This document shows positions 1 to 62,810 of a stretch of 64,000 bases of DNA, one piece after another. The notes under the pieces are model-generated. The model did no database searches. It saw only the letters and a program-made list of their open reading frames with translations, and was not told where the DNA came from. Both the position numbers and the translations under genes were made by a program. The stretch is taken from assembly GCA_021202335.1 (NCBI GenBank), contig JAJQDE010000009.1, forward strand, positions 1-64,000, written 5' to 3'. Numbering within the stretch: position 1 is the first letter of the stretch; every line of letters begins with the position of its first letter. Source of the DNA: Lachnospiraceae bacterium. GTDB lineage: Bacteria; Bacillota; Clostridia; Lachnospirales; Lachnospiraceae.

Positions 1-1053
1 TTGTGTCAAAACCGCTCACGTCCACACTTGTAAGACTGCTGCAATCCTGAAACATGCATGACATGTTCGTTACGCTTCCTGTATCAAAGCCGCTCACATC
101 CAAACTTGTAAGACTGCTGCAATTGTAAAACATAAGCCCCATCCACGATACATTACTTGTGTTGAAGCTGCTCAAATCTAAACTTGTAAGATTACTGCAA
201 CCGTAAAACATAGAACTCATGTTCATCACATTTCCTGTATCGAAGCCGCTCACGTCCACACTTGTAAGACTGCTGCAGTTGTAAAACATATCATCCATTC
301 GCGTCACGTTACTTGTATCAAGTCCGCTCAAGTCCACCTGTTCCAAAAACTCGCAGCCATAAAACATATGCGATAAATCTTGAACATCCGTCAGCGTAAC
401 AACCGCCTTTACAATATACTCCCTATAATCATACCATGGCGCACACCCAATATAGCTGATGCTCGAAAATTCTCCCGTCCCTTCCACGGTCAGCACGCCG
501 TCCTTGTCGATGACCCATGTAATGTCCCCGTAGCTGTCGGACGCAATATCGTCCGATGAACGCAAAACGGAAACCGTTTCCCCGGACTCCTCTTCCTCAT
601 CCGTTGAAACCGTTTCTTCTTCCGATTTCGTATATTCCGTTTCAGACGCATCCGTTGTTTCTGTTGTTTCTTCTGCAGATGCTTCCGCTGACTCCTGCGT
701 CTGTGCTTCCTCTGTTTCCGTTTCCTCTGTTTGAGCCTCCTGCGTTTCCGCTGCGGTCGTTTCCGCTGCGGTTGCTTCCGCTGTGGTCTGCGTCTGCTCT
801 TCCTCTACATCCGTCGTCAATGTTTCCTCCGTCACGGTCTGCGCCTGTTCCATCGCTTCCACGGACTCCTGCGTCTGTACTTCCTCTGTTTCCTCCTGCT
901 CCTGCGCGGACATATCGTCCGCTTCCTCCTGCCGGGCATCCGCTGATACGGCTTCGGAAGCACGGACAGTTATAGTACCGTACCCCCCCCAGGTATCATC
1001 ACGGCTGCAAGCAGGACTGCGAGAGTTTTCTTCCAATATGCTTTCTTTCGCAT
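1..1053 (-). CDS. BspA-like leucine-rich-repeat surface protein, 5' part, frameshifted at a G8 tract
   Basis: Partial gene running off the left edge. The start is ATG at 1053 behind AAAGGAAG; the first residues (MRKKAYWKK, then a hydrophobic AVLLAAVMI stretch) are the beginning of a secretion signal. After 21 codons comes a run of eight G (983-990). In the given sequence this frame hits TAA at 970-972. One more G (or two fewer) would join it to a long open frame that continues to the edge. That frame encodes a Glu/Gln/Thr-rich linker of roughly 120 residues, a short domain (DITWVIDKDGVLTVEGTG) and repeated units of the BspA/DUF285 type (MFYNCSSLTSVDVSGFDT and variants, about 23 residues each). 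Known family members are secreted or wall-linked proteins of gut and oral bacteria, often adhesins. The gene is either phase-OFF, a pseudogene, or carries a homopolymer sequencing error. Confidence 0.8.
983..990 (-). repeat. G8 homopolymer tract in signal-peptide codons (candidate phase-variation switch)
   Basis: Eight consecutive C on the plus strand, read as G8 on the coding strand, directly after codon 21 of the BspA-like gene. Upstream and downstream open frames differ by one base across the tract, so slippage to nine G would restore translation. Such tracts are known contingency loci in surface-protein genes; here that role is inferred. Confidence 0.6.
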
Positions 1054-1067
1054 CTCACACTTCCTTT

Positions 1068-1203
1068 CCAGAGCGTTAGCGACGAGGCGACGCAAATATC
1101 AGATTTGCGTCTGCCATCAAAGCTATTTGTGACGCTCCGGCACAAATAGCCAAAACAAACAAAGTTTGTTCTGTGAAAAATCAGTGCTTCAGCATGATTT
1201 TTC
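1068..1203 (-). repeat. Dispersed structured 5'-leader element, type A (copy 1, before the BspA-like gene)
   Basis: In sense orientation, ending 15 bp before the start codon. Hairpin H1 lies at 1174-1203. An extra small hairpin (AACAAAC/GTTTGTT) is at 1154-1170. H2 (GCTATTTGTG/CACAAATAGC) is at 1122-1150 with its loop at 1132-1140, and H3 (GACGCAAAT/ATTTGCGTC) follows. The H2 loop (CCGGAGCGT on the coding strand) is complementary, with one G-U pair, to ACGCTCTGG at 1068-1076, beside the ribosome binding site. Same family as copies at 17651, 18990, 49389 and 57526. It sits inside a leader of about 220 nt. Confidence 0.75.
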
Positions 1204-17647: not shown

Positions 17648-17650
17648 AAT

Positions 17651-17808
17651 AATCCCCATTTCTGAGCAACTCTGTTGCGAAGAGGCGGCGAGAAAGCCGC
17701 GAATGCGGTTTCTTGCCTGCCATCAGGGCTATTTGTTTTCGCTCAGAAACAAATAGCCGTGTGAAAAATAAGCTATCGAGCTTATTTTTCACACTAATCC
17801 CCATTTCT
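17651..17808 (-). repeat. Dispersed structured 5'-leader element, type B (before vsr), flanked by 14-bp direct repeats
   Basis: H1 (GTGTGAAAAATAAGCT/AGCTTATTTTTCACAC, 17759-17794) is a perfect 16-bp stem. H2 (GGCTATTTGTTT/AAACAAATAGCC) spans 17727-17758. H3 is built on AAACCGC/GCGGCTTT. The H2 loop (CTGAGC on the coding strand) is complementary to GCTCAG at 17662-17667, beside the ribosome binding site. The direct repeats TAATCCCCATTTCT at 17650-17663 and 17795-17808 bound the element, as a target-site duplication would, so the ribosome binding site is present at both ends. Confidence 0.75.
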
Positions 17809-18965: not shown

Positions 18966-18989
18966 GTCATTAATCCTTTCATAATCTAC

Positions 18990-19116
18990 TCCGGAGCGTT
19001 TTACGCGACGGGGCGACGCAAATGTCAAATTTGCGTCTGCCATCAAAGCTATTTGTGACGCTCCGACACAAATAGCTGTGTGACAAAATAAGCTATCGAA
19101 CTTATTTTTCACACTA
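18990..19116 (-). repeat. Dispersed structured 5'-leader element, type A (before luxS)
   Basis: H1 at 19078-19114 (GTGTGA...TCACAC). H2 at 19047-19077 (AGCTATTTGTG/CACAAATAGCT) with loop 19058-19066. H3 GACGCAAAT/ATTTGCGTC. Loop CGGAGCGT pairs with ACGCTCCG at 18992-18999. It lies between the dehydrogenase stop codon and luxS, so H1 could also act as an attenuator inside the operon. Here the element is followed by a separate ribosome binding site. Confidence 0.75.
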
Positions 19117-19125
19117 CTACTGCTT

Positions 19126-21099: not shown

Positions 21100-22860
21100 T
21101 TATTTTATTTCATTTGCCATCGTGTAAAGTCCGTAATAAATTCCGTGACGCTCCATCAGCGCGTCATGGCTTCCCTCCTCAACTATTCCCGCGTCCGTCA
21201 GCACCAGTATTCTGTCGGAGCTTCTTATCGTGGAAAGCCTGTGCGCAATCGTAAGCGTCGTGCGCCCTAAAGCCAGCTCATTTAAGGACTTTGCGACCGC
21301 ATACTCACTCTCATTATCTAACGCGGAGGTTGCTTCGTCAAGTATCAGTATGGGCGGATTTTTCAAAAACACGCGCGCAATGCTTATGCGCTGCTTCTGA
21401 CCGCCCGAAAGCTTCACGCCGCGCTCCCCGATATATGTGTCATATCCGTCCCGCAGATTTCGTATAAACTCATCCGCGCCCGCGCGTTTTGCCGCCTCCA
21501 TAACCTCGCTTCGCGAAGCCTCCGGTCTTCCATAGGCAATATTTTCATAAACCGTCCCCGAAAACAGATACACGTCCTGCTGGACCACTCCGATGCTCTG
21601 CCGCAAACTCTTAAGCGTAATGCTTTTTATATTTTTCCCGTCAAGCGTTATCTTACCGCCCGACACGTCATAAAAGCGGGGAATGAGATTGCATAACGTC
21701 GTTTTCCCGCCGCCGGAGGGACCCACAATCGCCAGCCGCTCGCCCGCGTGTATCCGCAGATTAAGGTGTGCAAACACCCTATTGTGGTCATCGGGGTACT
21801 CAAAGCTCACATCATCAAATACAATCTCACCTCTCGGATTTTCAATATCCTGCGCATCCGGCTCGTCAAATATTTCAATATCCGCGTCCATAATCTGCAA
21901 AAATCGCTCAATACCCGTGATACCGCGCTGAAACTGCTCCGCAAATTCGATAATCCTGCGGATAGTGGCAATGAGCGTCGTCACATACATCACATACGCC
22001 ACCATATCTCCCGGCAATATCCTGCCACCCATCAGGAAAAAGCCGCCGCCGATGATAACAGTCAGATACATCAGACCGTCAAACACCCTTGTTGATGTGT
22101 TAAATATACCCATCAGCAGATATCCGTAGGTCTTTATGCGCAGAAATTCCTGATTGCCGTTCTCAAATTTCTCCGTTTCAAGCGTTTCGTTTGTGAATGC
22201 CTTCACGACCCGCTGCCCCAAAAGGCTGTCCTCGATTTTGGCGTTCAGCTCTCCAATCTGGTTGCGCTGGCTGCTGAAGGTTCTGCGCATTTTTCTGTTA
22301 ATCTTAAAGCAGACTATCGTCATAAGCGGCACAAACACAAACACCATCAGTGTCAGCAGCAGATTGATTTTTGCCAAAATCAGAAACGATATCACAATTT
22401 TCAGCGCGGCAATGAAAAACTCCTCGGGACAGTGATGGGCAAATTCCGTCACGTCAAACAAATCGTTTGTGATACGTCCCATAATCTGCCCGACCTTTGT
22501 GTTGTTAAAGTAAGCGTTTGAAAGCTTCTGCAAATGCGCATACGCGTCGCGGCGCATGTCCGTTTCGATTTTTGCGCCCATCACATGCCCGATGTCCGAC
22601 ATATAGAAATTCGCAACCGCATCAATCACGCGCAGCACAAAATACAAAAGACCAAGTCCGAGCACCATGCGCGCCGTCAAAAGCGCCACGTTCTCAAGCG
22701 CCGTGTTCGTAATCTGCCTGATGATCAGCGGCAGCACAATCTCGCATATTGTAGTCAGCGCGGCACAAAACAAATCCATGTAAAGCGTTTTCCCATATGG
22801 CTTAAAATACGGCCAAAACCGTTTTATCAAAGTCCTTGTCGAATATTCCTTATTTTCCAT
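21100..22860 (-). CDS. ABC transporter, fused membrane and ATPase domains (exporter type)
   Basis: 586 residues. The N-terminal ABC_membrane domain has six spans (about 15-310). The C-terminal ATPase has Walker A GPSGGGKTT, Q-loop, signature LSGGQKQRISIARVF, Walker B ILILDEATSALD and switch His in TIAHRL. This is the homodimeric or heterodimeric multidrug/lipid exporter family (MsbA/BmrA-like). Ribosome binding site GAGGTGAAAA. Its substrate is not indicated. It forms a two-gene unit with the CPBP protease. Confidence 0.88.
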   Translation of the reverse strand: MENKEYSTRTLIKRFWPYFKPYGKTLYMDLFCAALTTICEIVLPLIIRQITNTALENVALLTARMVLGLGLLYFVLRVIDAVANFYMSDIGHVMGAKIETDMRRDAYAHLQKLSNAYFNNTKVGQIMGRITNDLFDVTEFAHHCPEEFFIAALKIVISFLILAKINLLLTLMVFVFVPLMTIVCFKINRKMRRTFSSQRNQIGELNAKIEDSLLGQRVVKAFTNETLETEKFENGNQEFLRIKTYGYLLMGIFNTSTRVFDGLMYLTVIIGGGFFLMGGRILPGDMVAYVMYVTTLIATIRRIIEFAEQFQRGITGIERFLQIMDADIEIFDEPDAQDIENPRGEIVFDDVSFEYPDDHNRVFAHLNLRIHAGERLAIVGPSGGGKTTLCNLIPRFYDVSGGKITLDGKNIKSITLKSLRQSIGVVQQDVYLFSGTVYENIAYGRPEASRSEVMEAAKRAGADEFIRNLRDGYDTYIGERGVKLSGGQKQRISIARVFLKNPPILILDEATSALDNESEYAVAKSLNELALGRTTLTIAHRLSTIRSSDRILVLTDAGIVEEGSHDALMERHGIYYGLYTMANEIK

Positions 22861-22898
22861 TTTTCACCTCATGTCACGACCGCAGGGAGTAACCATTT

Positions 22899-37761: not shown

Positions 37762-37842
37762 TTCATAAACACTTTGTTCATATATTATAATTGGGGTTAG
37801 TGTGACGGCATCCCGTCGCTAACGCTCCGGAATGGAGATTAA
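37762..37842 (+). promoter_or_regulatory. Promoter and partial leader element before the nuclease-like gene
   Basis: TTCATA (37762-37767), 18-bp spacer, TATAAT (37786-37791). Then a shortened type A element (37793-37842): GTGTGACGG directly joined to CCCGTCGCTAACGCTCCGG and the ribosome binding site AATGGAGATTA. H2 and H3 are missing, leaving a small GACGG/CCGTC hairpin. Confidence 0.5.
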
Positions 37843-37843
37843 T

Positions 37844-38590
37844 ATGCCGGAAACGATTGACAGACAGCTTTTTTCCGAGGCCTGTTGTAAAATGACAGGC
37901 GAATTAAAGGGACAAAACGGCATCGGAACACTGCAGGAAAAAACAATACATAGCGTTTTAAAATATTATTATGCACCCGACCCCGCATACCACGAAATCA
38001 AGATTGGGTCTTATGTTGCAGATATCTGCGTGGACGGTGAAATATTCGAGGTACAGACAAGAAACTTTAACGCAATGAGAGAAAAGCTCAGCTTTTTTTT
38101 ACAGGAGCATGAGGTCACAATCATATACCCTGTCGCCCACACAAAATGGATTTCATGGCTTGATATGGAAACGGGCGAGCTTTCGCCAAAACGTAAATCG
38201 CCCAAAACAGGCACGCCATACCAAATCATACCGGAGCTTTACAAAATAAAAATGTTTATCTCCAATCCGCGGCTTCACTTTATCATATCTCTCATAGACG
38301 TGGAGGAAACACGCTGTCTTAACGGCTGGAGCCGCGACAGAAAAAAAGGCTCTTCACGAATGGACGGAATACCTGTTGATATTTATAACGAGCTGCGTAT
38401 AGATACCATGTCGGATTATTTAAAGCTTCTTCCCGACACACTGCCCGAAAAATTTACCTCATCGGATTTATCAAGGGCTGCAAAAATTCCGCAAAAAAGA
38501 GCGTGTACGTTGTTGAATGTCCTGTTGGAAACAGGAACAATCAAACGCATCGGAAAAACGGGAAGAAGCTATTTTTATACAATAATATGA
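37844..38590 (+). CDS. PD-(D/E)XK nuclease-like protein with a C-terminal winged-helix domain
   Basis: 248 residues from ATG 37844; an ATG four codons earlier is the ribosome binding site itself. The N-terminal half has IHSVLKYYY, then EIKIGSYVADICVDGEIFEVQTRNF, which resembles a restriction-endonuclease-like core (E...D...E-x-Q). The C-terminal part (about 195-248) looks like a winged helix (FTSSDLSRAAKIPQKRACTLLNVL, GTIKRIGKTGRSYFY). Role unknown, perhaps DNA or RNA processing. Runs against the main strand bias of this arm. Family naming is tentative. Confidence 0.6.
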   Translation: MPETIDRQLFSEACCKMTGELKGQNGIGTLQEKTIHSVLKYYYAPDPAYHEIKIGSYVADICVDGEIFEVQTRNFNAMREKLSFFLQEHEVTIIYPVAHTKWISWLDMETGELSPKRKSPKTGTPYQIIPELYKIKMFISNPRLHFIISLIDVEETRCLNGWSRDRKKGSSRMDGIPVDIYNELRIDTMSDYLKLLPDTLPEKFTSSDLSRAAKIPQKRACTLLNVLLETGTIKRIGKTGRSYFYTII

Positions 38591-46242: not shown

Positions 46243-46316
46243 GTATATACCTCATTCCTGCGGACTTTAGTCCGCTAATGCTTTTTTGCCGCATAGGACG
46301 AACTTTCCTATACGAT
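46243..46316 (-). promoter_or_regulatory. dnaN leader with hairpin element (type C)
   Basis: On the minus strand: ATCGTATAGGAAAGTTCGT (46298-46316), then GCAAAAAAGCATTA, hairpin GCGGAC-TAAA-GTCCGC (46260-46275) and GGAATGAGGTATATAC before the ATG. The same order with compensated bases (GCGAAC/GTTCGC) stands before 61680, and the first motif also occurs at 17821-17842. Confidence 0.55.
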
Positions 46317-46499: not shown

Positions 46500-47861
46500 T
46501 TAGGACGGAGATATTTTCTTCTTTATTGTATCTATCTTATTTTTCAAATCACCATCGTCCTTTATAAGCTTTTCTATTTTTTTTACGCCGCTGATTACGG
46601 TGGTATGGTCCTTTTTACCTACAAGCGTGGCAATGTTCTGATAGGTTTCCGTTGTCATGGTGCGGCATAAATACATGATAATCTGGCGCGGGAGCGCAAA
46701 TTCCTTATCACGTTTTTGGGAGGATATATCGTCTATTGACACTCCAAAATGCTCAGCAACCGTATCAAGGATAAGCTTTGGAGTAACCTCTCTTGTCTTG
46801 TTTGGATAAATCACGTCGCCAAGAGCGTCCTCCGCAAGCTCTATCGTAAGCTCCTGCTTGTTAAGGCGCGCGTTCGCTATTACTTTATTTAAAGCCCCTT
46901 CAAGCTCCCTGATGTTTGATTTTATGTTTGTGGCGATATATTGGATAATTTCATCGTCAATAACTCTGTCATATGTTTCGGCATTTTTTCTTAAAATTGC
47001 CATACGCGTTTCATAATCGGGCGGCTGTATATCTGCAATCAGACCGCAGGAAAAACGCGAGCGGAAACGCTCGTCTAGGGTTTCCATTTCCTTTGGAGGC
47101 TTATCTGATGAAATAATAATCTGCTTTCCGGCAGAGTGGAGCGCGTTAAACGTATGGAAAAATTCCTCCTGCGTGGATTCCTTTCCTATAATAAATTGGA
47201 TATCGTCGATTAAAAGCACGTCAACTGTCCTGTATTTTTCACGTAGATTAGTCATTGCTGCGGCATTACCGCTCCGGATGGAGTCAATTACTTCATTAGT
47301 AAACTGTTCGCTTGTGACATACAGAACCTTCATATCCCGGTTCTGTTCAAGTACAAAATGACCTATTGAATGCATAAGGTGCGTTTTGCCAAGACCTGCG
47401 CCTCCATATAAATAAAGAGGATTATAGTTTTCTCCGGGAGATTCGGCTACAGCAAGTGCGGCGGAATGTGCAAATTTGTTGTTGCTGCCCACCACAAATG
47501 TGTCGAACTTATATTTACTGTTCAGGTTTGCGTTTTCATAATTTAAGTTATTTGTGTTTTTCAGGGAAGTGTTTTTTGAAGTATTATCCTGTAAATTGGC
47601 GTCATTTTCTGCCATAAAAATAATATCATAATAACAGTTCATCATTTCTGAAATGGTCGCCTTAAAGCATAAATAATAATTTTTCTTAATATAGCTTATA
47701 AGGTTTGCCTGTTCAGCAGGTACAAGAATAGTTACCGTATTGTTTTCAGCCTTGTAAAATTTTAAAGGTTTAATCCAAGTAGAATAGGGAACGTTGGTAA
47801 GCTCATATTCCTCTCTAAGATTTTCCTTTATTTCTTCCCATCTTTCTTTAATCTCGTTCAT
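46500..47861 (-). CDS. dnaA: Chromosomal replication initiator DnaA
   Basis: 453 residues from ATG 47861; the ATG four codons earlier is part of the ribosome binding site GGAATGGAGATTACA. Domain I at the N-terminus, an Asn-rich linker (about 100-120), AAA+ domain with Walker A GGAGLGKTH and Walker B LLIDDIQF, and domain IV with the DnaA signature KKDHTTVISGVKKIEKL. It binds the boxes on both sides of its own gene and opens the origin. Confidence 0.98.
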   Translation of the reverse strand: MNEIKERWEEIKENLREEYELTNVPYSTWIKPLKFYKAENNTVTILVPAEQANLISYIKKNYYLCFKATISEMMNCYYDIIFMAENDANLQDNTSKNTSLKNTNNLNYENANLNSKYKFDTFVVGSNNKFAHSAALAVAESPGENYNPLYLYGGAGLGKTHLMHSIGHFVLEQNRDMKVLYVTSEQFTNEVIDSIRSGNAAAMTNLREKYRTVDVLLIDDIQFIIGKESTQEEFFHTFNALHSAGKQIIISSDKPPKEMETLDERFRSRFSCGLIADIQPPDYETRMAILRKNAETYDRVIDDEIIQYIATNIKSNIRELEGALNKVIANARLNKQELTIELAEDALGDVIYPNKTREVTPKLILDTVAEHFGVSIDDISSQKRDKEFALPRQIIMYLCRTMTTETYQNIATLVGKKDHTTVISGVKKIEKLIKDDGDLKNKIDTIKKKISPS

Positions 47862-47893
47862 TGTAATCTCCATTCCAGAGCGCTGGCGACGTG
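47862..47893 (-). repeat. Type A leader-element remnant at the dnaA ribosome binding site
   Basis: Minus-strand CGTCGCCAGCGCTCTGGAATGG matches the 3' end of type A elements (CGTCGCTAACGCTCTGG before the BspA-like gene); the hairpins are absent. Confidence 0.5.
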
Positions 47894-47897
47894 ATGC

Positions 47898-49388: not shown

Positions 49389-49543
49389 ATGTGGATAGTA
49401 TGAAAAATAAGCTCGATAGCTTATTTTTATACGGCTATTTGTTTCTGAGCGAAAACAAATAGCCATGATGGCAGGCAAGAAACCGCATTCGCGGCTTTCT
49501 CGCCGCCTCTTCGCAACAGAGTTGCTCAGAAATGAGGATTAGA
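49389..49543 (+). repeat. Dispersed structured 5'-leader element, type B (before yidC)
   Basis: H1 at 49398-49432: GTAT...AAAAATAAGCT/AGCTTATTTTT...ATAC. H2 at 49433-49464: GGCTATTTGTTT/AAACAAATAGCC, loop 49445-49452. H3 uses ACCGC/GCGG. Loop CTGAGC (49445-49450) is complementary to GCTCAG (49524-49529) next to the ribosome binding site AATGAGGATTAGA. Similar sequence at both ends (AATGTGGATAGTATG and AATGAGGATTAGAATG) recalls a target duplication. It fills the whole gap between yidD and yidC. Confidence 0.75.
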
Positions 49544-57525: not shown

Positions 57526-57669
57526 GGAATGGAGAATAGTATGAAAAATAAGCTCGATAGCTTATTCTTCATACACAAATTTGTGTCGGAGCGTCACAAA
57601 TTTGTATGATGGCAGACGCAAATTTTATATTTGCGTCGCCCCGTCACTAACGCTCCGGAATGGAGAATA
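57526..57669 (+). repeat. Dispersed structured 5'-leader element, type A (before parA), flanked by 13-bp direct repeats
   Basis: H1 57539-57574 (GTATGAA.../...TTCATAC). H2 57575-57605 (ACAAATTTGTG/CACAAATTTGT) with loop TCGGAGCGT 57586-57594. H3 57615-57637 (GACGCAAAT/ATTTGCGTC). Loop CGGAGCGT is complementary to ACGCTCCG at 57650-57657, beside the ribosome binding site. GGAATGGAGAATA occurs at 57526-57538 and again at 57657-57669, as if the parA ribosome binding site was duplicated by insertion. Confidence 0.8.
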
Positions 57670-57671
57670 TA

Positions 57672-58442
57672 ATGGGGAGAATTATTGCAATAGCAAATCA
57701 AAAGGGTGGCGTTGGTAAGACAACTACATCAATCAATTTGTCGGCATGTATCGCTGCAAAAGGAAAAAAGGTTTTAGTGATTGATATGGACCCTCAGGGA
57801 AATACAACCAGCGGATATGGAATAGAAAAAAACGAGCTGGAGAACACGGTTTATGAGTTAATCATGGGTGACTGCTCGGTTGAGGATTGTATATTAAAGG
57901 AAGTATTTTCTAATGTTTCGATAATTCCGTCTAACGTAAATCTTGCCGCTGCCGAGATTGAGTTAATTGGTGTAAATGACAAGGATTTTATATTAAAAAA
58001 TGAAATTGATTGGGTAAAGGATAACTATGATTTTATTATAATTGATTGTCCGCCTTCCTTGAATTTATTGACGGTAAATGCCATGACGACAGCAGACGCC
58101 GTTTTGGTTCCAATACAATGTGAGTATTACGCGTTGGAAGGGCTTAGCCAGCTTATACATACGGTAAATCTGGTAAAAGAAAGGCTAAATCCTGATTTGG
58201 ATATGGACGGTGTGGTATTTACAATGTATGATTCCCGCACAAATCTTTCCAATCAGGTAGTGGAGAATGTAAAAAATAATTTAAGCCAAAAGGTTTACAA
58301 CACGTTGATACCGAGAAATATAAGGCTTGCGGAAGCGCCGAGCTATGGACAGCCTATAAATATTTATGATTCCAAATCGGCAGGAGCGGAGAGCTACATG
58401 GCACTTGCGGAGGAGGTTATCAATAATAACAGTAATAAGTAG
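57672..58442 (+). CDS. parA: Chromosome partitioning ATPase ParA (Soj), complete copy
   Basis: 256 residues from ATG 57672; the ATG 12 bases before belongs to the ribosome binding site. Deviant Walker A KGGVGKTT at residues 11-18, switch DMDPQGNTT, and FIIIDCPPSLNLLTVNAM. It acts with ParB on origin segregation and regulates DnaA in relatives. The first 34 bp of the gene are unique; from 57706 on, the DNA is repeated 1652 bp downstream. Confidence 0.96.
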   Translation: MGRIIAIANQKGGVGKTTTSINLSACIAAKGKKVLVIDMDPQGNTTSGYGIEKNELENTVYELIMGDCSVEDCILKEVFSNVSIIPSNVNLAAAEIELIGVNDKDFILKNEIDWVKDNYDFIIIDCPPSLNLLTVNAMTTADAVLVPIQCEYYALEGLSQLIHTVNLVKERLNPDLDMDGVVFTMYDSRTNLSNQVVENVKNNLSQKVYNTLIPRNIRLAEAPSYGQPINIYDSKSAGAESYMALAEEVINNNSNK

Positions 58443-58471
58443 AGTTCTATCAATTAAAGGAGATTATTTGA

Positions 58472-59353
58472 ATGGCGAAAAGGGGACTAGGTAAAGGATT
58501 AGATACCTTGATATCTGCGGAGGCTGTCAAGCCTGTGAGTAATGAAGGTACAGGTCAGGCGGAAACAGTAGTAAAGATAACAAAGGTTGAACCAAACAGG
58601 GAACAGCCAAGAAAAAATTTTGACGAGGATGCGCTTCAGGAATTAGCGGATTCCATTAAACAGTTCGGATTGCTGCAGCCTATTCTTGTTCAGGACAGAA
58701 AAAATTATTATGAAATCATTGCGGGAGAGAGAAGATGGAGAGCGGCAAAGCTTGCCGGCTTGAAAGAGGTTCCCGTAATAATAAAGAATTATTCAGATCA
58801 GGAAATTATGGAAATCTCTCTTATTGAGAATATTCAGAGAGAGGACTTAAATCCGATTGAGGAAGCGATTGCCTATAAAAGACTTTTGGAGGAATTTCAT
58901 TTAAAACAGGACGAAGTGGCAGAGCGTGTGTCAAAAAGCAGGAGTACGATAACGAACAGTATGCGTCTTTTAAAGCTTTGCGATTTTGTTCAGCAAATGA
59001 TAATCGACGACAAGCTTTCGACAGGTCATGCAAGAGCGCTTATTCCGATACAGGATGAAGAGCAGCAAAAGCAGATTGCTGAAAAAATATTCGATGAAAA
59101 GCTCAGTGTGCGGGAGGTTGAAAAAATTGTTAAGTCAGTTTTAAATCCTGCGGAGAAGAAACCTCAGGAGGAAATACCTAAAAATATTCAATATATTTAT
59201 GAGGATATTGAAAATAAGCTTAAGGAAAAGCTCAGCAGGAAGGTGGCTATCAGTGCAAAGGGCAAGGGCGGCATCGGAAAGATAGAGCTTGAATTTTATT
59301 CCAATGACGATTTGGACAGGTTGGTCGAGGCATTGTTAAACAGCAGCTTTTGA
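58472..59353 (+). CDS. parB: Chromosome partitioning protein ParB (Spo0J), copy 1
   Basis: 293 residues. CTPase/N-terminal domain with IAGERRWRAAKLAG and IENIQREDLNPIEEA, a central helix-turn-helix for parS (EVAERVSKSRSTITNSMRLL), and a C-terminal dimer domain. It binds parS and slides as a CTP-dependent clamp. RBS AAAGGAGATTATTTGA. It ends TGA, followed at once by a second in-frame TGA, then the truncated parA. Confidence 0.96.
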   Translation: MAKRGLGKGLDTLISAEAVKPVSNEGTGQAETVVKITKVEPNREQPRKNFDEDALQELADSIKQFGLLQPILVQDRKNYYEIIAGERRWRAAKLAGLKEVPVIIKNYSDQEIMEISLIENIQREDLNPIEEAIAYKRLLEEFHLKQDEVAERVSKSRSTITNSMRLLKLCDFVQQMIIDDKLSTGHARALIPIQDEEQQKQIAEKIFDEKLSVREVEKIVKSVLNPAEKKPQEEIPKNIQYIYEDIENKLKEKLSRKVAISAKGKGGIGKIELEFYSNDDLDRLVEALLNSSF

Positions 59354-59357
59354 TGAA

Positions 59358-60094
59358 GTGGCGTTGGTAAGACAACTACATCAATCAATTTGTCGGCATG
59401 TATCGCTGCAAAAGGAAAAAAGGTTTTAGTGATTGATATGGACCCTCAGGGAAATACAACCAGCGGATATGGAATAGAAAAAAACGAGCTGGAGAACACG
59501 GTTTATGAGTTAATCATGGGTGACTGCTCGGTTGAGGATTGTATATTAAAGGAAGTATTTTCTAATGTTTCGATAATTCCGTCTAACGTAAATCTTGCCG
59601 CTGCCGAGATTGAGTTAATTGGTGTAAATGACAAGGATTTTATATTAAAAAATGAAATTGATTGGGTAAAGGATAACTATGATTTTATTATAATTGATTG
59701 TCCGCCTTCCTTGAATTTATTGACGGTAAATGCCATGACGACAGCAGACGCCGTTTTGGTTCCAATACAATGTGAGTATTACGCGTTGGAAGGGCTTAGC
59801 CAGCTTATACATACGGTAAATCTGGTAAAAGAAAGGCTAAATCCTGATTTGGATATGGACGGTGTGGTATTTACAATGTATGATTCCCGCACAAATCTTT
59901 CCAATCAGGTAGTGGAGAATGTAAAAAATAATTTAAGCCAAAAGGTTTACAACACGTTGATACCGAGAAATATAAGGCTTGCGGAAGCGCCGAGCTATGG
60001 ACAGCCTATAAATATTTATGATTCCAAATCGGCAGGAGCGGAGAGCTACATGGCACTTGCGGAGGAGGTTATCAATAATAACAGTAATAAGTAG
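59358..60094 (+). pseudogene. parA: Truncated second parA, lacking the start codon and Walker A start
   Basis: The parA frame resumes at codon 13 directly behind parB copy 1 (TGA TGA AGT GGC). It has no ATG and no ribosome binding site of its own. The first possible start, TTG 59390, would give a protein missing residues 1-22, including the whole Walker A loop, so it could not bind ATP. The rest of the frame is intact and identical to the full copy. It is in frame with the upstream parB, so only the two stop codons separate a ParB-ParA fusion. Confidence 0.85.
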
Positions 60095-60123
60095 AGTTCT
60101 ATCAATTAAAGGAGATTATTTGA

Positions 60124-61005
60124 ATGGCGAAAAGGGGACTAGGTAAAGGATTAGATACCTTGATATCTGCGGAGGCTGTCAAGCCTGTGAGTAATGAAGG
60201 TACAGGTCAGGCGGAAACAGTAGTAAAGATAACAAAGGTTGAACCAAACAGGGAACAGCCAAGAAAAAATTTTGACGAGGATGCGCTTCAGGAATTAGCG
60301 GATTCCATTAAACAGTTCGGATTGCTGCAGCCTATTCTTGTTCAGGACAGAAAAAATTATTATGAAATCATTGCGGGAGAGAGAAGATGGAGAGCGGCAA
60401 AGCTTGCCGGCTTGAAAGAGGTTCCCGTAATAATAAAGAATTATTCAGATCAGGAAATTATGGAAATCTCTCTTATTGAGAATATTCAGAGAGAGGACTT
60501 AAATCCGATTGAGGAAGCGATTGCCTATAAAAGACTTTTGGAGGAATTTCATTTAAAACAGGACGAAGTGGCAGAGCGTGTGTCAAAAAGCAGGAGTACG
60601 ATAACGAACAGTATGCGTCTTTTAAAGCTTTGCGATTTTGTTCAGCAAATGATAATCGACGACAAGCTTTCGACAGGTCATGCAAGAGCGCTTATTCCGA
60701 TACAGGATGAAGAGCAGCAAAAGCAGATTGCTGAAAAAATATTCGATGAAAAGCTCAGTGTGCGGGAGGTTGAAAAAATTGTTAAGTCAGTTTTAAATCC
60801 TGCGGAGAAGAAACCTCAGGAGGAAATACCTAAAAATATTCAATATATTTATGAGGATATTGAAAATAAGCTTAAGGAAAAGCTCAGCAGGAAGGTGGCT
60901 ATCAGTGCAAAGGGCAAGGGCGGCATCGGAAAGATAGAGCTTGAATTTTATTCCAATGACGATTTGGACAGGTTGGTCGAGGCATTGTTAAACAGCAGCT
61001 TTTGA
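60124..61005 (+). CDS. parB: Chromosome partitioning protein ParB (Spo0J), copy 2
   Basis: 293 residues, identical in protein sequence to copy 1 (58472-59353), with the same ribosome binding site 1652 bp further on. The gene is complete and should be expressed by readthrough from the par operon, which would raise the ParB:ParA ratio. If the duplication is an assembly error, this is the same gene seen twice. Confidence 0.85.
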   Translation: MAKRGLGKGLDTLISAEAVKPVSNEGTGQAETVVKITKVEPNREQPRKNFDEDALQELADSIKQFGLLQPILVQDRKNYYEIIAGERRWRAAKLAGLKEVPVIIKNYSDQEIMEISLIENIQREDLNPIEEAIAYKRLLEEFHLKQDEVAERVSKSRSTITNSMRLLKLCDFVQQMIIDDKLSTGHARALIPIQDEEQQKQIAEKIFDEKLSVREVEKIVKSVLNPAEKKPQEEIPKNIQYIYEDIENKLKEKLSRKVAISAKGKGGIGKIELEFYSNDDLDRLVEALLNSSF

Positions 61006-61089
61006 TGAAGTAAAAACAGCTTGTATCCGTGCGTTGTCTGATACAGGCTTTGCATATACACAAAATGCAGCGCAGAATGGGGGATACTG

Positions 61090-61635: not shown

Positions 61636-61679
61636 GCAAAAAGCATCAGCGAACTAAGGTTCGCAGGAATGAGGTATAT
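61636..61679 (+). promoter_or_regulatory. Hairpin leader element (type C) before the HD-domain gene
   Basis: GCAAAAAGCATCA, hairpin GCGAAC-TAAG-GTTCGC (61649-61664) and GGAATGAGGTATAT lead straight to the ATG. The dnaN leader has the same order with hairpin GCGGAC-TAAA-GTCCGC: a G-C pair replaced by A-T on both arms. Confidence 0.55.
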
Positions 61680-62810
61680 ATGAGATTAATTTCAATTGAA
61701 GATTTAAAAGAGGGAAATGTCATTGCGAACGATGTGCTTCTTGAGGATTACACGGTTGTGCTTGGAAAAGGCACGGTTGTAAAAAAGCAGTATATTGATA
61801 AGCTGCGCGAGCTGAATATTTTTACGGTGTATATTGAGGAGGAGGACACATCAGACAAGCCGTCCGCGCCTGTTGTTGAAAAAAAGGAAGAAAAAGAAGA
61901 AAAGCCTGAAAAAAAACATTCAAGGCTCTCTATGGAAACTGTCACGATTTTGCGGCAGGATGTGGAGGAGCAGATTAAAAATAAGGTAAAGGATATCCTT
62001 GAGCTGCATGTTTACCAAAAAACATCAGGCTTGGAAAAAATTGCGGAAACTGCGCAGAATATAATAGCGGATATTCTTGAGGAAGACGAGGTGGTCGAAA
62101 AGGTCTATGACGTAAAGGAAAGAAGTGCGGATATATACGAACATTCGCTTCAGGTCTGCACGATTGCCACACTGATTGCGCTAAAGCTTGGTATGACGCA
62201 AAGACAGGTTTATGACATTAGTGTCAGTTCTTTGATACACGACCTGGGAATGAGGTATTTGGTAATCCGATATGAGGATCAGGACATTAATCTTTTGCCG
62301 GCAAAGGATCAGTCGGAATATAAAAAGCATCCGATTTACGGCTATACGGCAATTAAAAGCGAGGACTGGCTTTCCGAGCAGGCAAAGGAGATTGTGTTAA
62401 ATCATCATGAGCGAAAGGACCGTTCAGGATATCCGCTCGGAACGGATTTGATTTCGCGTGAAACGCAGATTGTGGCAGTGTGCGATGAGTTTGACGAGCT
62501 AATCTGCGGGATTGGAAAAGCAAGGGTCCGTGTCCATGAAGCAATCAACAATATCAGAAATTACAGCGGAATATGGTTTGACAGTGATATTGTCGACGCG
62601 TTTTTGCAGCTTATTGCGGTTTATCCCGCAGGCTCAAGGGTTAAGACAAATCAGGGTGAAACGGGAATTGTGTTAAGGCAGAACATGCATTTTCCGGAAA
62701 GACCTATACTTCGAATTACGCACGACAGATTTGGTCAGGTCATTCAGGGTGAAAAGCTGATTGATTTGATAAAGGATACATCAGTGGTGATACAGCAGGT
62801 TATAAAATAA
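61680..62810 (+). CDS. HD-GYP-like phosphohydrolase domain protein
   Basis: 376 residues. The N-terminal part (about 1-60) resembles the DUF3391-like domain before HD-GYP. A Lys/Glu-rich linker (about 65-85) follows. The HD domain has EHSLQVCTIATLIALKLG, IHDLGMR, HPIYGYTAI and LNHHERKDRSGYPLG. The usual HDIGK is HDLGM, so the Lys is missing, but GYP is kept. Members hydrolyse c-di-GMP; activity here is open. A role in nucleotide signalling is likely but unproven. Confidence 0.8.
   Translation: MRLISIEDLKEGNVIANDVLLEDYTVVLGKGTVVKKQYIDKLRELNIFTVYIEEEDTSDKPSAPVVEKKEEKEEKPEKKHSRLSMETVTILRQDVEEQIKNKVKDILELHVYQKTSGLEKIAETAQNIIADILEEDEVVEKVYDVKERSADIYEHSLQVCTIATLIALKLGMTQRQVYDISVSSLIHDLGMRYLVIRYEDQDINLLPAKDQSEYKKHPIYGYTAIKSEDWLSEQAKEIVLNHHERKDRSGYPLGTDLISRETQIVAVCDEFDELICGIGKARVRVHEAINNIRNYSGIWFDSDIVDAFLQLIAVYPAGSRVKTNQGETGIVLRQNMHFPERPILRITHDRFGQVIQGEKLIDLIKDTSVVIQQVIK

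Follow-up and report, generated by a model that had tools for sequence, protein, structure and literature searches.

The window analyzed here, 64,000 nucleotides of a contig from a Lachnospiraceae bacterium (GCA_021202335.1, JAJQDE010000009.1, positions 1 to 64,000), contains a structured repeat directly upstream of a parA/soj gene (57672..58442, plus strand; Pfam), for which 57672 is the most likely start, congeners using the homologous ATG. On the plus strand, a copy of GGAATGGAGAATA (57526..57538) forms the 5' side and corresponds to the old Shine-Dalgarno (SD) region of the gene. An identical 13-mer on the right (57657..57669) is the 3' end of the element, with its SD and a spacer matching the left copy; that the SD is the element's own was seen at another site. 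The element begins with hairpin H1, GTATGAAAAATAAGCT-CGAT-AGCTTATTCTTCATAC (57539..57574), defined by sequence and covariation alignments. Within H1 an NTG opens a short ORF of 22 codons plus TGA (57541..57609) with an SD-like GGAG upstream, as read from copy L039 and the control of SD position. Sequence and alignment further define H2 (57575..57605; loop TCGGAGCGT at 57586-57594) and H3 (57615..57637), a module that differs among subfamilies. Between them lies the linker TGATGGCAG (57607..57615), found by a motif search of the window, and covariation identifies ACGCTCCGG (57650..57658) as the pseudoknot partner of the H2 loop.

The linker or its complement occurs at five places in the window, which are exactly the five intact copies. 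Besides the parA copy, the covariance-model search returned type B copies before yidC (49398..49543, plus strand) and vsr (17648..17797, minus strand), a type A copy before luxS (18978..19117, minus strand) and another type A copy at 1055..1175 (minus strand), whose first hairpin is different. The layout H1, H2, linker, H3, 3' strand and SD that the sequence-only reading had described was thus found at all five places, and in 5/5 copies the H2 loop complements the strand that precedes the SD and the element lies in sense to the next gene. Pfam agreed with the proposed neighbors Vsr, LuxS, YidC (60KD_IMP) and ParA (AAA_31). For the 'BspA-like' label of the gene after the copy at 1055..1175 there was no such agreement; this gene (1-1053, minus strand) is interrupted, its frame from the ATG at 1053 reaching a stop after 27 codons. 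Of the proposed shortened remnants, the 3' end before dnaA (47859..47897, minus strand) was recovered by a repeat search, with DnaA assigned by Pfam. A second remnant (37797..37843, plus strand; covariance-model match with E 0.05) lacks H1 and H2 and keeps the 3' strand and the SD, and the supposed 'S4' gene behind it (37844-38587) had no Pfam match at 1e-5. The ends of the element read G(T/A)NTGAAAAAT on the 5' side and ...CGGAATGGAG on the 3' side, and its size is about 90-170 nt. The sequence-only reading did not include the left-hand second SD, the start codon (NTG) within H1 or the extent of the family.

Other repeats were observed in the same window. Most of parA and all of parB lie in an exact tandem duplication of 1654 nt at an offset of 1652 (57706-59359 and 59358-61011), in which the second parA match starts at residue 14; this is either a very recent event or an assembly artefact. 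At 46244-46286 (minus strand) and 61638-61680 (plus strand), before dnaN and an HD-domain gene, a hairpin like GCGGAC-TAAA-GTCCGC is followed by AGGAATGAGG and a start codon, and is possibly a second repeat carrying a ribosome-binding site (RBS). A third repeated leader, CCTG(T/C)GGTCG(C/T)G(G/A)CATGAGGTGAAAAATG, reaches up to the start codons of two ORFs (1676-1709 and 22853-22886, both minus strand).

The folded structure of the element is conserved well beyond the window. In an alignment of 26 copies from several genomes, 96.6% of the cells pair and 18 pairs show double changes, neither of which was reached by any of 500 shuffles. The alignment was extended to 104 distinct rows, the non-redundant part of 108 matches (one an opposite-strand hairpin shadow, L016:999-1160) that were drawn from 100 chosen loci, duplicates and contig-edge loci being mostly left out, and were aligned to a model given H1, H2 and H3 without the pseudoknot. 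Here 97.3% of the cells in 45 pairs are paired and 34 pairs have changed on both sides (0/500 shuffles reach this). The covariation score was 0.341, compared with 0.097 in shuffles that ignore kinship (0/500) and at most 0.042 in slid controls. The pseudoknot helix itself is 92.9% paired, with changes on both sides in 4/8 pairs. The longest run of pairing between a loop and its own 3' strand averaged 8.38 in the 93 rows in which the script found H2 (11 of the 104 had none), against 6.35 when each loop was combined with the strand of another copy (at most 6.67 in 200 trials) and 4.47 when the loops were shuffled; in five rows the run was no longer than 6. Loop and strand vary in concert, as CCGAAGCGC with GCGCTTCGG, CCGCAGGCGC with GCGTCTGCGG, TCAGAGC with GCTCTGA and TACGAG with CTCGTA. 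All helices covary, including the loop-to-RBS pseudoknot proposed from the window, and the three hairpins and the loop-to-3'-strand pseudoknot are maintained by selection. Subfamilies exchange H3 and an additional hairpin following H1 as modules. Three copies of genome G076 (L306, L307 and L308) share an internal deletion from the H2 loop to the 3' strand; they lack the H2 3' arm, H3 and the pseudoknot, retain H1 and the SD before the gene, and perhaps represent a spreading minimal subfamily.

The family is large and dispersed. With a covariance model built from 26 copies, the genome of the window (2.74 Mb, 65 contigs) contained 38 places at E<=1e-20 and 127 rows at E<=0.1, the latter including opposite-strand hairpin shadows; a single-copy DNA query returned 77 rows at E<=1, shadows again included. 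Genomes G076 and G312 each hold at least 40 places, many of them 94-99% like the query. An order-wide scan of 295 genomes, with 11 candidates scored per genome and strict filters that make its result a lower bound, gave a match at E<=0.001 in 20 genomes. In five of these (G060, G073, G087, G179, G263) the one copy read in each was a hairpin without the layout, and they were not counted as carriers, leaving at least 15 carriers in two families of the order (f1 with 10, the genome of the window included, and f8 with 5). A DNA search of 40 genomes matched seven, again including the genome of the window. Of 33 matches in a different search, four were judged false by eye (L019 plus strand, L024 minus strand, L033 minus strand and one on the minus strand of the window). 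The H1-H2 pattern was also found in 42 stretches of named MAGs labelled Roseburia, Eisenbergiella, Acetatifactor, Blautia, Lachnoclostridium, Lachnospira and Lachnospiraceae, and in one labelled Gastranaerophilales, which may reflect a wrong label or contamination. Rfam 15 gave no match at the gathering score in the window, and at E<=1 in eight loci only two microRNA models matched, upstream of the element in L009. The one H1-H2 pattern tried on viral contigs found nothing, plasmids had no match to the element, and among phage records two unannotated faecal contigs matched weakly (E 4e-7 and 3e-9). Several contigs end within copies of the element (C14, C25, C60 and C45 in the genome of the window; C1, C5, C6, C28, C29, C32, C35, C50, C98 and C134 in G076); the element thus breaks assemblies, which makes copy counts uncertain. 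A short subfamily, in which the first hairpin differs (GAACAAAC-TTT-GTTTGTTC) and H3 is missing, was seen at L128-L132, L134, L135 and L138 of the genome of the window, several of its copies lying directly after an SD-like string.

The position of the element relative to genes is not random. Of 119 copies whose 3' end is present and followed by 60 nt or more (found with a pattern that requires an SD-like string; eight of them in G312), 108 have a start codon 4-14 nt past the SD that opens at least 40 codons or a frame reaching the locus end; as a control, 151 of the 650 GGAG/GGGG strings of the window precede such an ORF start. By set, the fractions directly before an ORF start were 30/32 in the genome of the window, 20/21 in other genomes, 19/20 in G076, 8/8 in G312 and 31/38 in the named MAGs. 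Among the misses, two copies precede another copy, and L202 (minus strand) is probably a false pattern match. The distance from the new SD to the gene start was 4-6 nt in 106/117 copies, which is partly built in, the pattern admitting only 4-9. The left flank ended in TA in 90/120 copies.

A second translation signal is placed at the other end of the element. At the H1 position of the start codon, TG is present in 85 of the 104 distinct rows (48 GTG, 21 ATG, 15 TTG and, in L078, one CTG), a count cleaner than a looser one of 147 NTG hairpins that included no CTG and possibly opposite-strand shadows. The 19 rows without TG have mostly lost or replaced H1, four of them keeping it intact (L072, L148, L149 and L074). 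The base preceding the N can be any of the four (T 72, A 13, G 9, C 6), and few independent changes may underlie the NTG rule. In 61/84 copies the NTG follows the end of an SD-like 4-mer by 4-6 nt, compared with 3, 3, 5, 7, 4 and 6 of 84 when the search window was shifted 15 to 65 nt upstream. In a survey in which two rows had no start motif, the short ORF was 3 to 27 codons long or, in 18/70 copies, extended beyond the pseudoknot strand; with a length so variable, it is the start codon rather than the peptide that is kept.

Filled and empty sites were compared next to each other. At the yidC locus all 11 congeners examined have a plain leader and none has the element, read by eye in congeners with a complete upstream region (the cut-off matches L178 and L179 and matches from other families were left out). 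At the parA locus all 11 congeners fetched have a plain SD and, also by eye, no element. Two of these empty congeners, G001 and G009, carry the element elsewhere. The Roseburia MAGs E01_bin149 and BRZ_HM_bin25 are 95.5% and 96.3% identical over two long stretches; four filled sites of E01_bin149 were queried in BRZ_HM_bin25, where two are empty with contiguous flanks of 93-94% identity (a gpsA-like and a folA-like site), one is also filled and one had no match. The map-like site is empty in a third genome (the other matches in G320 were too diverged to read); the names folA, gpsA, map and adk were read by eye from translations. At the gpsA-like site the sequence is GAATGGAGAGTA-ATATG in the empty state and GAATGGAGAGTA-[GTGTG...CGCTCCG]-GAATGGAGAGTA-ATATG in the filled state. 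The folA-like site is GAGAAGGCATTAGTATG when empty and ends in CGGAATGGAGATTATTATG when filled; as GGAATGGAG occurs in the filled site and not in the empty one, the element brought its SD there.

The repeat is thus a mobile element rather than the inherited leader of a regulon, and the earlier suggestion of a mobile repeat carrying an RBS is borne out by the filled and empty sites, the many near-identical copies and the unrelated downstream genes. An inherited cis-regulatory leader that was lost in relatives would agree with the sense bias, the covariation and the sites common to two close species (L194/L226, L209/L214 and the L207 site). It appears extremely improbable given the absence of the element from 11 of 11 congeners at each of two loci, the near-identical dispersed copies, the copies nested within or adjoining older ones and the unrelated genes. 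For the latter, 20 downstream proteins of the genome of the window (of 24 listed) were compared with Pfam; 19 had families and one had none, and the 19 families are mutually unrelated except for two ABC ATPases, in line with the unrelated functions noted in the window.

Taken with the signals at its two ends, the element is very probably an RBS-splitting one. It is non-autonomous and inserts in sense into the spacer between the SD and the start codon of a gene, at a point that three sites place about 2 nt before the start codon. Seen from the old SD, its NTG takes the place of the old start codon, while the SD that it carries lands at a normal distance before the gene start. The RBS is thus split and both halves are restored, the old SD now lying before the short element ORF and the new SD before the gene; translation is expected from both, apparently leaving the gene readable.

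We also compared the flanks of the copies. The exact flank suffix shared with the own partner was 6.97 in G000 against 3.10 when flanks were re-paired (0/2000, N=30), 2.97 against 1.74 in the named MAGs (1/2000, N=35) and 4.78 against 2.90 in G312 (1/4000, N=23); in G076 re-paired flanks matched as well in 557/2000 (N=10) and 87/4000 (N=12) trials. A 4-mer test at fixed distance gave 0/2000 in the named MAGs and 357, 1505, 251 and 180, each of 2000, in G000, G312, G076 and a mixed set; with the offset left free, G000 gave 10/2000. A 4-nt NNTA duplication was clear only in the named MAGs at fixed distance and was not retained. The left flanks of some copies are the 3' ends of older copies (e.g., L011, L018, L122, L123 and L146), which inflates flank identity. 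These comparisons suggest a flank duplication of 4 to about 12 nt in at least part of the copies.

As to how the element moves, it could be a non-autonomous derivative of IS200/IS605 (Y1) or an RNA retroposed by an ordinary reverse transcriptase. Such an origin would account for the hairpin ends, the lack of terminal inverted repeats and the strand-specific target, and is nevertheless very unlikely. Y1_Tnp is absent from 6/10 carriers (G000, G165, G273, G312, G149 and G237) and present in 8/14 non-carriers. RVT_1, the reverse transcriptase to be expected for a group II intron or other retroelement, is likewise absent from 6/10 carriers (G165, G312, G269, G237, G030 and G204) and present in 11/14 non-carriers. 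For both families, gaps in the draft genomes may play a part. 5' truncation was considered as a sign of retroposition and set aside as unusable, because selection would act against copies losing the 3' SD. Among half or long-looped elements in G076, G312 and the fetched loci, no longer or autonomous form with an ORF was seen, nor in the same material a parent IS with matching ends; the half-element search yielded only truncations, contig ends and one internal deletion, its pattern on the fetched loci being crude and also catching ordinary copies.

The fold itself could serve mobility, with a recombinase or RNA-binding factor reading the folded single strand through pseudoknot and hairpins and the RBS position reflecting no more than a target motif of the kind GGAG-NNTA. 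This explanation agrees with covariation that spans two families of the order at a time when many insertions look young, with the left flanks ending in TA and with the repeated invasion of the 3' ends of older copies. It is harder to reconcile with the three pseudoknot-less copies of G076, which may however have arisen by later deletion, and a target motif alone leaves unexplained both the NTG at SD distance and the element's own SD; we regard it as quite possible, if somewhat doubtful. More speculatively, and rather unlikely in our estimate, the element may belong to a class of mobile elements that targets the RBS as such, perhaps recognised as RNA or via the translation apparatus, is moved by some enzyme other than Y1 or a common reverse transcriptase, and in which start codon, pseudoknot and SD form a unit keeping the invaded gene translated. 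If so, this class would rewire the leaders of housekeeping genes and seed new small ORFs in passing.

The role of the pseudoknot was approached with folding models of 78 copies (30 of the 108 matches were left out as repeats or because the flank, the SD pattern or an exact pseudoknot was missing). The probability of the SD being unpaired was 0.299 in the free fold, 0.415 with the pseudoknot held and 0.266 with H1/H2 occupied. Sequestration of the SD as the main function was weak in these models and was rejected. We tentatively prefer host compatibility as the role of the pseudoknot: it would fold the insert on itself and keep hold of CGCTCC, the strand complementary to the SD, leaving the new SD available. 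Of the earlier proposal that an RNA controls translation, the loop-to-RBS covariation stands, whereas a control function is left as a conjecture by the modest rise in SD accessibility and the G076 copies without the pseudoknot.

A translational switch would be a more specific form of such control. Ribosomes on the short ORF would open H1/H2 and break the pseudoknot, the freed CGCTCC would pair with GGAG and the gene would be off; with the short ORF untranslated, the pseudoknot would form and the gene be on. The start codon and SD placed for the short ORF fit a switch, as does a CTC/GAG hairpin over the SD that overlaps the pseudoknot strand. The SD was more accessible with the pseudoknot than with H1/H2 occupied in 50/78 copies, but the effect is small and mixed, 28/78 being opposite or tied. 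The ORF ranges from 3 codons to beyond the pseudoknot strand, the G312 strand (GCGTCTGCGG) has no GCTCC, copies without the pseudoknot exist and the downstream genes are unrelated, all of which makes a switch unlikely.

The element appears to invade the most sensitive part of a leader, bringing along what translation needs on both sides. Der/EngA, IspH/LytB and YidC, all found by Pfam among the invaded genes, are essential in many bacteria. The family can serve as a natural experiment on the effect that an exchanged RBS has on expression. In gut Lachnospiraceae it supplies new small ORFs and leaders and breaks contigs in assemblies, and it poses the puzzle of which enzyme picks ribosome-binding sites.

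In the literature we found no description of the family; preprints and most subscription papers lay outside the search, so it may be published. The terms 'ribosome binding', 'Shine-Dalgarno' and 'start codon' are absent from the main text of two reviews (PMC10969869 and PMC2229807). The element is short, non-autonomous and present in many dispersed copies, as MITEs are, and shares with bacterial MITEs such as Correia/NEMIS, ERIC and RUP a length of about 100-200 bp and folded transcripts (PMC2229807). Those MITEs have terminal inverted repeats, whereas the ends G(T/A)NTGAAAAAT and CGGAATGGAG are, by eye, not mutual inverted copies, and a parent IS was found neither in G076 and G312 nor in the fetched loci. 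Rickettsia palindromic elements (RPE) are likewise described there as selfish short repeats compatible with translation, lying in-frame in genes (PMC2229807); they enter coding sequence, whereas the element described here goes into the RBS, where it re-creates both SD and start codon. Pneumococcal BOX repeats are modular, cotranscribed with operons and may encode ORFs, but the expressed BOX ORFs lack good SD candidates, and the sections of the source used here mention no RBS target (PMC3049150). YPAL/RU-2 of Yersinia is a small mobile sequence of 168 bp, for which the corresponding sections of PMC2229807 mention no target between SD and start codon, no carried SD and no loop-to-SD pseudoknot. 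As described there, it is nearest to our element in build, having no terminal inverted repeats, internal hairpins, a duplication of variable length, empty and filled sites and an ORF.
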